DNA from: Alphaproteobacteria bacterium
GTDB lineage: Bacteria > Pseudomonadota > Alphaproteobacteria > Bin65
Assembly: GCA_021776685.1 (NCBI GenBank)
Contig: JAJFFJ010000049.1
Location: 1-46,215 of the forward strand
DNA: 46,215 nucleotides
Reading direction: 5' to 3'
The notes under the pieces are model-generated. The model had not been told where the DNA came from. It searched no databases and saw only the letters and a program-made list of their open reading frames with translations. Within the stretch, counting starts at the first letter, position 1; the number at the start of each line of letters is the position of its first letter. The position numbers were made by a program, and so were the translations under genes. Below are positions 3,389 through 7,487 of the stretch, piece by piece.

Positions 3389-4288
3389 ATGGATTCAGGT
3401 GCGCTTGCCTTGGCGCCGGACTCGATTCCCGAGAACCCGGCCTACGAAATTTTTGAGCCCGGCGTTCAGACAGCGCCGGTTGTCTTTGCGTCGCCCCACA
3501 GCGGCGAGGACTATCCCGCCCATTTCCTCAATATCTCGAAGCTGGACGCCTATGCGATCCGCCGGTCGGAAGACAGCTTTGTGGACCAGCTCTACAGCGC
3601 GGCGCCCGCCTGTGGCGCACCGCTTTTGTGCGCCACCTTTCCGCGCGCCTTCGTAGATCCCAACCGCGAGCCGTTCGAGCTGGATCCGGATATGTTCGAC
3701 GACCCGCTGCCGGACTATGCAAACCCGACATCGCCGCGGGTCGCCGCCGGCCTGGGCACCATCGCCAAGGTGGTCTGCAGCGGCGCGGAAATCTATGACG
3801 GCAAGCTGCGCTTCGCCGAAGCGCTGGACCGCATCAACAGCTGCTACCGCCCTTATCACAGCGCCCTCCAGGCGTTGATCGACCGGACCAGGGATCGATT
3901 TGGCTACTGCATCCTGGTGGACTGTCATTCAATGCCGTCGGTGGGCGGCCCCATGGACCGGGACCCCGGCCGCCGGCGCGTGGATTTCGTGCTCGGTGAC
4001 TGCTACGGCGTGTCCTGCCACCGGAGCCTGACTGACCAGGTGCACGCCACCCTCGTGCGGCTCGGCTATATGGTCAAACGTAACCTGCCTTATGCCGGCG
4101 GCTTCACCACCCGTCATTATGGCGAGCCGTCAGAGCGGGTGCACGCCCTGCAGATCGAGGTCAACCGGGCGCTCTATATGGACGAAACCCGCTTTGCCAA
4201 ACGACCCGGTTTCGAAACGTTACTTGGCAATATCACCATCATGATCGAGCAGCTGGTGAGCGCCGATGAAGGCCTGTTCGCTGCATGA
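3389..4288 (+). CDS. N-formylglutamate amidohydrolase family protein
   Basis: This 299-residue protein matches the N-formylglutamate amidohydrolase family (FGase, Pfam PF05013 type). Visible family motifs are FASPHSGEDYP near residue 33, a metal-binding segment DCHSMPS near 180, and GGFTTRHYGEPSERVHALQIEVNR near 235 (only the key residues matter: GG..T..YG...R..ALQIE.NR). The classical reaction splits N-formyl-L-glutamate into formate and glutamate in the histidine degradation route, but no hut genes are adjacent. It overlaps the next gene by ATGA, so the two are translated together. It may have a general N-acyl-amino-acid amidase role. Confidence 0.87.
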   Translation: MDSGALALAPDSIPENPAYEIFEPGVQTAPVVFASPHSGEDYPAHFLNISKLDAYAIRRSEDSFVDQLYSAAPACGAPLLCATFPRAFVDPNREPFELDPDMFDDPLPDYANPTSPRVAAGLGTIAKVVCSGAEIYDGKLRFAEALDRINSCYRPYHSALQALIDRTRDRFGYCILVDCHSMPSVGGPMDRDPGRRRVDFVLGDCYGVSCHRSLTDQVHATLVRLGYMVKRNLPYAGGFTTRHYGEPSERVHALQIEVNRALYMDETRFAKRPGFETLLGNITIMIEQLVSADEGLFAA

Positions 4289-4824: not shown

Positions 4825-4910
4825 CCCGATCGCGACGGCAGTCCATTGTCAGGGTGGCAGGCAGGAACGCGATTGCCTACATTGTCCGCAACAACAGACC
4901 GGAGGTCACC

Positions 4911-5741
4911 ATGGCGCAGGCCGCCAAACATGCGGCGCCGCGCGCGGACCACACCATCGACCAGGCATGGGACGACTATACATCTGAAGAGCATGACATC
5001 TGGCGCAGACTATTCGAGCGCCAATCCACGGTTCTGGTCGACCGCGCGGTGCAGGAATTTCTCGACGGTATCGATTTTCTGGGTATTGCCGGTGGCGGGA
5101 TACCCGATTTCCGCCGTCTCAACGACGCGCTGATGGCGCGCACGGGCTGGCAGATCGTGGCCGTGCCCGGCCTCGTGCCGGACGACATCTTCTTCGATCA
5201 TCTTGCCAATCGGCGGTTTCCCGCGACTGCCTGGATCCGCACCGGGGAGCAGATGGACTATCTGCAGGAACCGGATGTGTTCCACGATGTATTCGGTCAT
5301 GTCCCGCTGCTCGCCAACCCGGTGTTCGGCGACTATATGGCTGCCTACGGCCGCGGCGGCCTCAAGGCCCTGAAGCTGGGCGCCCTGGAAAAGCTCGCGC
5401 GCCTTTACTGGTACACGGTGGAATTCGGTTTGATCCAGACGCCGGCCGGCCTGCGCATCTACGGCTCGGGCATCGTCTCGTCGAAGGGCGAATCGGTTTT
5501 TGCGCTGGAGAGCCCGGCGCCCAACCGCATCAGCTTCGACCTGCTGCGCATCATGCGCACCAACTACCGCATCGATGATTTCCAGGAGAGCTATTTCGTG
5601 ATCGATAGCTTCGAACAGTTGTTCGGCGAAACCCTGCCAGATTTCACAGATTACTATCGCCAACTGGCGTCCATGGACGACCTGACGCCGAGCGATATCC
5701 TGGCGCAAGACACGGTGCTGCACCGGGGAATTGGCGTGTGA
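4911..5741 (+). CDS. phhA: Phenylalanine 4-monooxygenase
   Basis: This 276-residue monomeric aromatic amino acid hydroxylase converts phenylalanine to tyrosine using tetrahydropterin and O2. The iron ligands are visible as His125 and His130 in FHDVFGHVPLL and Glu171 in YWYTVEFGL. The protein lacks the regulatory ACT domain of animal enzymes, as usual in bacteria. The ATG at 4911 is preferred because GGAGGT at 4901-4906 lies just upstream; an in-frame GTG at 4854 would add 19 unconserved residues. No pterin carbinolamine dehydratase gene (phhB) is next to it. A weak hairpin (arms CAGCGCA/TGCGCTG at 5858-5877) follows the gene. Confidence 0.95.
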   Translation: MAQAAKHAAPRADHTIDQAWDDYTSEEHDIWRRLFERQSTVLVDRAVQEFLDGIDFLGIAGGGIPDFRRLNDALMARTGWQIVAVPGLVPDDIFFDHLANRRFPATAWIRTGEQMDYLQEPDVFHDVFGHVPLLANPVFGDYMAAYGRGGLKALKLGALEKLARLYWYTVEFGLIQTPAGLRIYGSGIVSSKGESVFALESPAPNRISFDLLRIMRTNYRIDDFQESYFVIDSFEQLFGETLPDFTDYYRQLASMDDLTPSDILAQDTVLHRGIGV

Positions 5742-5976
5742 GCCTATCCCGCCTCGCCGTGGATTGGATGCCGCTGCAATCGCCGCACGTTGGCCTCAAT
5801 GTAACCAACAAGGTGCTTGCGGCATCTATTAGTAACCCTACGGGCAAAATCCTGGCGCAGCGCACGACCTTGCGCTGGGGATCTGATTGGGGTTTTGAGG
5901 TCAGCAAAGCAGCATTTTTTCCACCTCGGCGAGCATGGTGGGCGAGCATGGTGGGCGAGCAAAGGTGGGCGCCATG
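5742..5976. other. Intergenic sequence after phhA with a short 13-bp tandem repeat
   Basis: No convincing gene is present. The stretch holds a weak hairpin at 5858-5877 and, at 5928-5967, a tandem repeat of GGCGAGCATGGTG: two perfect 13-bp units and a third 14-bp unit reading GGCGAGCAAAGGTG. The repeat sits just beyond the minus-strand terminator at 5977-6006. Short open frames on both strands here lack family features. Confidence 0.6.
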
Positions 5977-6006
5977 AAAAAGGGCCGCACCGGGAAGGTG
6001 CGGCCC
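5977..6006 (-). terminator. Rho-independent terminator (minus strand)
   Basis: On the minus strand a perfect 10-bp stem, GGGCCGCACC/GGTGCGGCCC with a TTCCC loop, is followed directly by TTTTT (plus-strand A run at 5977-5981). No minus-strand protein gene ends here: phhA and the Mla operon are both on the plus strand. The terminator therefore most likely ends a non-coding transcript. Confidence 0.88.
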
Positions 6007-6078
6007 AAGTCTAGGGAGGAAACGCCCTAAAGTGAAACGACAGCTAAACGCAAACGCGGTCAGGGGCGTCTGTCGCAC
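5977..6078 (-). ncRNA. Candidate small RNA with anti-Shine-Dalgarno motif and possible pseudoknot
   Basis: A strong terminator with no gene in front of it implies a short minus-strand transcript of about 100 nt. Upstream of the terminator, in transcript order, are CGACAG (6075-6070), ACGCCC (6069-6064), CTGTCG (6043-6038) and GGGCGT (6027-6022). The first pairs with the third and the second with the fourth, so the two helices interleave as an H-type pseudoknot or act as alternative folds. A single-stranded TTTCCTCCCTAGACTT with the anti-Shine-Dalgarno core CCTCCC (6019-6014) precedes the terminator. A TGTAAAT box (6091-6085) could be a -10 element. The 5' end is a guess. Alphaproteobacterial trans-acting RNAs with CCUCC loops are known, but I cannot assign a family. 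Confidence 0.5.
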
Positions 6079-6332
6079 CGCAACATTTACACCGCATCGC
6101 AGCAAAGGCAAGGAGTTTTTTATTGGCAAATATGGGGGCCTGTGATCGGATGGCCACCATGGGTAGGAAACCTCCAAACATTTCTTGTGCAACGCACATC
6201 AGTTCAACGCCCCATGTCGGCCATTTGCCACGTAGGGCTGAAATTCATGGAGCGTTGGCAACTCCACCCACGCCCGGTTCTGTCCCCCGATCCGACAGTG
6301 TCGCGGCGATCTAAACGCCGCTGAAGGGGCCA
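6079..6332. other. Upstream region of the Mla operon and of the candidate small RNA
   Basis: No gene is supported. On the minus strand two related blocks, TTGCTGCGATGCGGTG and TGTTGCGGTGCGACAG, lie at about 6105-6070. Their TGC/GCA-rich form resembles a regulator-binding repeat. The remaining sequence up to 6332 should hold the plus-strand promoter of the Mla-type operon, although no clear -35/-10 pair stands out. Confidence 0.4.
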
Positions 6333-7487
6333 ATGGTAGAGGACGACGCCTGGATCAATGCCGAACGCACCGCGGACGCCCTTGTGGTGGCAGTGGGCGG
6401 CGACTGGCGTGTGGATGCTGTAGCGAACCTGCTACGCGCTGCGACTGCCACATGGACGGCGGAAAAGGCCGGCGACGGCGTCTCGACGGCGGTTGTGCGC
6501 GCCCGGGATATATCTTCCCTCGACAGTGGCGGTGCGTGGCTGCTGGTCCACCTTAGTCGTCAGCTTGAAGAGCGTGGCTTTACCACCCGCATCGATGGAC
6601 TGGGCGACAGTCACCGGCTCCTGCTGGACCGGGTTCGCAAGTCTGCGGACCGCATTGAAATAACCGAGGTGCCGCCCAACAGGAACGCCCTGGTCAGCGC
6701 ACTGGCAACCGTCGGCGAAGCTGCCGTCAATGCCTGCAAGCGCGCCCACGAGTTGCTGTCTTTCTTCGGACTGACGGTCATCCTGCTGGGCCGCGTCATT
6801 GTTCGCCCCTGGCGCCTTGAGCTGACCGCGACCCTCAAATATATCGAGCGCACTGGCTTGGACGCCCTGCCGATTGTGGGCCTGCTGGCCTTCCTCATCG
6901 GGGTCGTCGTTGCCTTCATGGGCGCGACCCAATTGAAGCAGTTCGGCGCAGAGATCTTCACCGTCAATCTGGTGGGGGTCGCCGTACTGCGCGAGCTGGG
7001 CGTGCTGATAACGTCGATCCTGATCGCCGGCCGGTCCGGCAGCGCGTTTACCGCGCAGATCGGCACCATGAAGGTGAACCAGGAAGTGGACGCCATGCAG
7101 ACCATCGGGCTGGACCCGGTGGAGATCCTGGTGTTGCCGCGAATTATTGCACTGATGATCACGCTACCGCTGCTGACCTTTTATGCAAACATGATGGGTC
7201 TGGCCGGCGGCGCTTTCATGTCTGTGGTCACCCTGGACATCTCGCTGACGCAATTCCTGGACCAGCTTTCCGGCGCCATCGACTTCACTACATTTGCGAT
7301 TGGCATGGTGAAGGCGCCGGTCTTTGCCTATGTCATTGCTCTGGTCGGCTGTTTCGAAGGCCTGAAAGTCACCGGTAGCGCCGAAAGCGTCGGCCAACGC
7401 ACCACAATGTCGGTTGTCGAAGGCATCTTCCTGGTCATCGTGTTCGATTCAATTTTCGCCATCGCCTTCAGCTATCTGGGGATCTGA
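6333..7487 (+). CDS. mlaE: MlaE-type ABC transporter permease with N-terminal STAS domain
   Basis: The 384-residue protein combines an N-terminal STAS-like domain (about residues 8-110, with the DISSLDSGGAWLLVHLS helix region) with an MlaE permease (about 125-384). The permease part has five or six hydrophobic helices and the family segments GLLAFLIGVVVAF, VLRELGVLITSILIAGRSGSAF and GTMKVNQEVDAMQTIGLDP. In MCE transport systems the permease pairs with MlaF and MlaD at the inner membrane to move phospholipids between membranes. In the Escherichia coli system the STAS protein MlaB is separate; the fused arrangement is common in alphaproteobacteria. GAAGGGG precedes the start. It is the first gene of a four-gene operon. 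Confidence 0.93.
   Translation: MVEDDAWINAERTADALVVAVGGDWRVDAVANLLRAATATWTAEKAGDGVSTAVVRARDISSLDSGGAWLLVHLSRQLEERGFTTRIDGLGDSHRLLLDRVRKSADRIEITEVPPNRNALVSALATVGEAAVNACKRAHELLSFFGLTVILLGRVIVRPWRLELTATLKYIERTGLDALPIVGLLAFLIGVVVAFMGATQLKQFGAEIFTVNLVGVAVLRELGVLITSILIAGRSGSAFTAQIGTMKVNQEVDAMQTIGLDPVEILVLPRIIALMITLPLLTFYANMMGLAGGAFMSVVTLDISLTQFLDQLSGAIDFTTFAIGMVKAPVFAYVIALVGCFEGLKVTGSAESVGQRTTMSVVEGIFLVIVFDSIFAIAFSYLGI

Follow-up and report, generated by a model that had tools for sequence, protein, structure and literature searches.

Alpha-r8 RNAs are among the most widespread sRNA families of alphaproteobacteria with a known anti-Shine-Dalgarno (anti-SD) seed, and the model that describes them is a nested structure only. 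The family was defined by a shared 10-mer, UUUCCUCCCU (PMC12559287), and its genes are usually, if not universally, linked to a gene for N-formylglutamate amidohydrolase (FGase) (Vogt et al. 2025, PMC12559287). SisA has been shown to pair directly via its anti-SD core and to repress mRNAs (PMC12559287). In Sinorhizobium meliloti, PhaR binds the mmgR promoter, the PhaR/AniA core being YGCRNYGCR (PMC12542648). AbcR1 and AbcR2 have partial homology to the suhB model (PMC7143759). A survey of rhizobial sRNAs did not, by its own statement, consider pseudoknots (PMC3927594), and our literature search found no pseudoknot description for alpha-r8 RNAs; we claim novelty with the reserve that the family's phylogenetic study did not surface in that search.

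The RNA described here appears, from sequence comparison, to be a new structural variant of this known family, marked by a covarying 5' helix (H1), a conserved second helix (H2) that interleaves with it and the complementary loss of the usual local hairpin. We lean towards the view that alpha-r8 sRNAs exist in two topologies and that in several alphaproteobacterial lineages, this one among them, an H-type pseudoknot replaces the local hairpin as the latch that holds the seed open.

Identity and neighbourhood of the sRNA gene

The window (the whole 46,215-nt stretch of DNA that was analysed) contains a 590-bp gap between two plus-strand genes, the first ending at 5741 and the second starting at 6333. 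The original prediction had placed a minus-strand terminator in this gap, and it is indeed there: a 10-bp stem with 9 G-C pairs (6006-5982), followed by TTTTT (5981-5977). It had also proposed an sRNA of about 100 nt on the minus strand with an exposed anti-SD, and this RNA turns out to be a homologue of MmgR and SisA-D with a predicted length of ~103 nt. The features of the locus are:

3389 to 4288, plus strand: FGase-like gene (TIGR02017, E 6e-33, under the curated cut-off; synteny in relatives)
4854 to 5741, plus strand: phenylalanine 4-monooxygenase (PAH) gene, convergent neighbour (TIGR01267, 351 bits)
5977 to 6079, minus strand: alpha-r8 (MmgR/SisA-type) sRNA gene, predicted transcript ~103 nt, predicted start within +/-3 nt, from RF00519 and promoter alignment
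6013 to 6022, minus strand: anti-SD core UUUCCUCCCU (seed), an exact alpha-r8 10-mer
5977 to 6006, minus strand: Rho-independent terminator, 10-bp stem and T tract, directly downstream of the seed region
6333 to 7487, plus strand: MlaE-type permease gene

The Rfam family RF00519 (suhB/MmgR, alpha-r8) matches the minus strand at 5968-6042 with 53 bits (gathering threshold 41; E 3e-8), and the match spans model positions 1-77, the full length of the model. The alpha-r8 10-mer is exact at 6022-6013, and the CCTCCC at 6019-6014 lies inside this 10-mer (TTTCCTCCCT, 6022-6013). The FGase-like gene, a conserved neighbour of alpha-r8 genes in relatives, is two genes away. Because the RF00519 score, the 10-mer and the FGase-linked locus all match alpha-r8, the sRNA is of a kind already known, an MmgR/SisA-type homologue by sequence. 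It is nevertheless a structural variant and not a typical member, since the local hairpin is absent even though score, seed, terminator and locus mark homology.

The same locus order, FGase-GNAT-(PAH)-sRNA-MlaE, is found in genomes of the same family. In several lineages outside it, FGase, a GNAT acetyltransferase and in some cases PAH adjoin the sRNA, and FGase does so in many genomes beyond the family. The sRNA is present in 9 of the 11 genomes examined of the family (and order), and of 290 genomes sampled across the class, 177 gave an RF00519 match. The locus L006:1329-1847 (G043:C7) carries three tandem alpha-r8 genes beside PAH, each with its own promoter; two of these promoters have a PhaR-type dyad, TGC-N3-GCA, between -35 and -10.

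A second RF00519 match in the genome of the window (contig C110, 30.2 bits) was rejected as an alpha-r8 copy, being below the cut-off and without UUUCCUCCCU. It is one unit of an array on that contig (L002:1291-1859, minus strand) in which four head-to-tail terminator units each follow a CUCCC-containing stretch, two of them nearly identical; by sequence, this array resembles several anti-SD sRNAs in tandem. Weak RF00519 matches also occur in L112 and L115, which come from related genomes. Matches to rli32, sbrA, SorY and others in a relaxed scan were discarded, as they were far under their own cut-offs and mostly covered the terminator. Just 3' of the sRNA terminator is a tandem repeat (5928-5971; unit GGCGAGCATGGTG, 3.3 copies).

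Proposed promoter and start of the transcript

A promoter scan of the 590-bp gap returned no promoter-like site at its threshold, and automated promoter picking missed the promoter of the window, a spacing of 16 and a weak -10 not being favoured. Alignment with loci of the same family nevertheless points to the following elements:

6106 to 6111, minus strand: -35 element TTGCCT, in alignment with the TTGAAA/TTGCTT-N17-CATATT that the family shows at L013, L020 and L022
6084 to 6089, minus strand: putative -10 element TAAATG, weak, spacing 16, at a position homologous to the relatives' CATATT
6093 to 6101, no strand assigned: PhaR/AniA-type core TGCGATGCG, between -35 and -10 (YGCRNYGCR match)
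6074 to 6082, no strand assigned: another PhaR/AniA-type core, TGCGGTGCG, located at the start site (YGCRNYGCR match); many relatives have TTGCAGTGCG-type sites at the aligned position

Because this promoter aligns with the TTGAAA-N17-CATATT of the family, transcription would start near 6079 and yield an RNA of ~103 nt; the 5' strands of both H1 and H2 would therefore lie inside the transcript.

The TGC/GCA-rich blocks upstream, taken in the original prediction for possible regulator sites, are real. The YGCRNYGCR core occurs four times in the 590-bp gap (5856, 6074, 6093 and 6188) versus 44 times in the whole 46-kb window, and the blocks match the PhaR/AniA core of the mmgR promoter. Two of the cores flank the -10, as predicted PhaR/AniA-type sites at the promoter like those at S. 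meliloti mmgR. Many relatives likewise have PhaR-type cores at the start, between -35 and -10, or in both places. The genome encodes PhaR (148 bits), and PhaR may well control the sRNA. Further up, at 6184-6197, a PhaR-type core (TGCAACGCA) forms part of the near-palindrome TTGTGCAACGCACA. This site precedes the sRNA start by ~110 bp and the MlaE-type operon by ~140 bp.

Interleaved helices in the window and its relatives

Both of the interleaved 6-bp pairs that had been noticed on the minus strand exist. H1 pairs CGACAG (6075-6070) with CTGTCG (6043-6038) and extends to 7 bp (6076-6070 with 6043-6037), while H2 pairs ACGCCC (6069-6064) with GGGCGT (6027-6022):

6070 to 6076, minus strand: H1 5' strand GCGACAG, pairs with 6043-6037; covaries across pseudoknot lineages
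6037 to 6043, minus strand: H1 3' strand CTGTCGT, pairs with 6076-6070
6064 to 6069, minus strand: H2 5' strand ACGCCC, within the loop of H1; partner GGGCGT 6027-6022
6022 to 6027, minus strand: H2 3' strand, the GGGCGT arm, invariant in same-family loci

The geometry of an H-type pseudoknot is feasible: H1 has 6-7 bp and H2 has 6, the two 5' strands are 0-1 nt apart, and a stretch of 9 nt (6036-6028) leads up to the H2 3' strand. Judged by the window alone, the interleaved match exceeds chance only weakly: when the H1 loop was shuffled, an H2 as good arose in 98 of 1000 dinucleotide shuffles and in 22 of 1000 simple shuffles. For 9-nt loops, dinucleotide shuffles make a poor null. What lifts the interleaved match above chance is the comparison with relatives.

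In most alpha-r8 RNAs, the 10-mer is preceded by a GGGCG arm whose local partner, a GCCC, lies immediately upstream of it. This local partner covaries with the arm (GCACAA/UUGUGC, AACACC/GGUGUU, GCGCUC/GAGCGU, AUACCCG/UGGGUAU and others), and since the one changes along with the other, the arm seems to depend on having a partner. The canonical local hairpin has four pairs, of which the Rfam alignment shows two as non-standard in the window, so the local hairpin is gone; the local pairing that is left is a spurious overlap pairing of -6.4 kcal/mol. Across the family of the window (three genera), the local arm is lost and a near-invariant ACGCCC stands in the H1 loop instead, in 8 of 9 loci; the ninth, L026, has GCGCCC, and its aligned H1 is broken or weaker. 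The order is the same in all three genera (first H1 strand, ACGCCC, a variable hairpin, second H1 strand, linker, GGGCGU and seed), and the loop surroundings of ACGCCC can hardly be aligned across them.

The H-type layout recurs, in a different H2 register, in family f94 (L171-L184, at least five genera), where the loop ACUGCCCAA, between GCAGCAUG and CAUGCUGC, pairs with UUGGGCG, as does the alternative loop ACUGCCCAG, between GCAAUACGG and CCGUAUUGU; RNAs of the L171 type have a 9-nt loop. The layout also recurs in a third, small lineage. In L143, L207, L209, L211 and L201, again in a different H2 register, a loop GCCCA pairs with UGGGC. Among 122 distinct 5' regions, a strong loop partner was present in 17 of the 31 RNAs without a local hairpin versus 5 of the 91 with it. 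Loop and local partners tend to be mutually exclusive; Fisher's test gives p 1e-8, a value that is too small because relatives were counted apart; four or five separate lineages contribute. L020 and L022 are mis-scored in this table, their inner hairpin outranking H1.

Covariation of both helices had been named as a check on the structure, and it came out for one of them. In H1, both sides changed in 5 of 7 pairs, with 17 such cells versus 6.7 in shuffles, and the covariation score was 0.53 versus 0.31 (none of 500 shuffles reached it, and slid controls stayed at or under 0.20). In H2, four pairs were invariant and none changed on both sides. The pairs were counted on hand-cut helix segments (15 distinct rows for H1), because a MAFFT alignment of the full same-family RNAs misplaced the second H1 strand and the terminator of the window; this procedure is biased in favour of the structure proposed, H1 itself having been picked by eye. 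Since the H2 core never varies, covariation is silent on H2, and the support for this helix is its conservation and its replacement of the local hairpin.

Seed access, candidate targets and comparison with described systems

Six RNAs of the pseudoknot type were folded without pseudoknots, and in these nested folds the arm uses its GGG to pair with the seed's CCC. When the H2 strands were held out of other pairing, the seed was unpaired with a probability above 0.93 in all six, and this difference suggests that a partner for the arm, be it local or in a pseudoknot, opens the seed. The CCTCCC that had been described as unpaired is present, but to stay unpaired it requires that GGGCG be engaged by H2 or by some other partner; the nested minimum-energy fold pairs its CCC with the arm's GGG. 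The nested fold of the window, with UUUAGGG/CCCUAGA, has -46.9 kcal/mol. Forming a pseudoknot carries a penalty of about +8 kcal/mol. In a rough estimate, the remaining fold contributes -39.4 and the H2 stacks -14 to -15 kcal/mol, so that for the window the nested fold is calculated to be about equal to or slightly better than the pseudoknot. On the same rough scale, the pseudoknot would win in L013, L022 and L171 and lose by a small margin in L143. Should latch and closed fold be nearly equal in energy, as they are in the window, the latch could act as a switch, with a protein, a sponge RNA or the order of transcription setting it.

The pattern AGGGAGGAA-N3-10-ATG has 16 sites in the genome, versus 0 for a reversed-pattern control and 3 for AAGGAGGAA. 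Among the 15 target-site genes examined, five encode DctP (TRAP) binding proteins and two Peripla_BP_6 (ABC) proteins. The genome has ~21 DctP genes, which gives a hypergeometric p of 7e-9 (assuming 4300 genes) for the DctP enrichment; this enrichment could also reflect a preference for strong SD sequences on DctP genes and not sRNA control. The candidate set would fit the known preference of SisA for membrane transporters. An hfq gene is present (111.7 bits). By analogy with SisA, a member of the family that the original prediction had not recognised, its idea of a translation-repressing sRNA gains support, and the RNA would probably depend on Hfq and repress mRNAs.

We consider it probable that the locus encodes a trans-acting alpha-r8 sRNA in a pseudoknotted variant, with a PhaR(AniA)-type promoter, a seed held open and an SD-blocking mode of action. 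A sigma-70-type promoter with PhaR(AniA)-type operators would give rise to a transcript of ~103 nt, whose 5' part would form the hairpin H1. CGCCC in the H1 loop would then pair, as H2, with the GGGCG arm before the seed, keeping the arm off the seed CCC and leaving UUUCCUCCCU open. With Hfq, the seed would pair with AGGGAGGAAA-type Shine-Dalgarno sequences and block translation, and its targets would probably include the periplasmic binding proteins that serve TRAP and ABC importers. Of this model, the sequences show family membership, synteny, the conservation of the elements, the covariation of H1, the hfq and phaR genes and the enrichment of target sites; the start site, the formation of H2 in the cell, the dependence on Hfq, control by PhaR and repression are inferred.

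An ordinary alpha-r8 RNA, in which H1 is a plain 5' hairpin, the ACGCCC match is incidental and the seed lies in a weak UUUAGGG/CCCUAGA hairpin that opens upon binding of Hfq or a target, would have exactly the shape of the nested minimum-energy folds. It would also agree with the lack of covariation in H2 and with a single-sequence chance of about 2-10% for this helix. However, ACGCCC is kept in three genera amid loop surroundings that hardly align, the same layout recurs in f94 and f125/L201, and the long UUUAGGG/CCCUAGA stem is found only in the window (5 bp in L023; absent in L013 and L022). We therefore hold an RNA without a pseudoknot to be unlikely, if far from negligible.

It is quite improbable that the RNA is a short MmgR starting near 6042, as in S. 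meliloti, and that the upstream repeats are promoter or operator DNA (PhaR sites) with no RNA structure. The Rfam model does start at 6042, S. meliloti MmgR has 77 nt (PMC7143759, PMC2573895) and the H1 5' strand overlaps a PhaR-type core, but neither the gap scan nor inspection revealed a -35/-10 pair just upstream of 6042. Instead, the TTGAAA-N17-CATATT of the family lies some 40 bp further upstream, and H1 covaries as an RNA stem, with long hairpins in many lineages. Finally, a weak -10 might suggest that there is no sRNA gene at all, only a product of read-through or of a 3' UTR, or else a terminator that arose by chance; given the family match and the conservation of synteny and promoter, we give this next to no credence.

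A conserved pseudoknot that stands in for the lost hairpin would account for the open seed of the pseudoknot lineages, and it would improve both the detection of homologues and the prediction of targets. We envision it as a clean example of a change in sRNA topology under constant function.

The pseudoknotted RNA shares with MmgR of S. meliloti the seed UUUCCUCCCU, the terminator, the RF00519 match and a PhaR/AniA-type site at the promoter. However, MmgR has 77 nt with its seed behind a local hairpin, whereas the RNA of the window has a longer 5' part with H1, in whose loop the partner of the arm sits. With SisA-D of Caulobacter crescentus (PMC12559287) it has in common the seed, the vicinity of an FGase gene, which sisA adjoins, and a probable mode of action in which the anti-SD pairs with mRNAs of transporters. 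Yet SisA-D were described with a weak local hairpin, and Caulobacter has four copies versus one full match here. AbcR1 and AbcR2 (alpha-r15) are also Hfq-bound alphaproteobacterial anti-SD sRNAs acting on transporter mRNAs, but they belong to another family, with two anti-SD motifs, a locus adjoining lsrB and no match in the present case.
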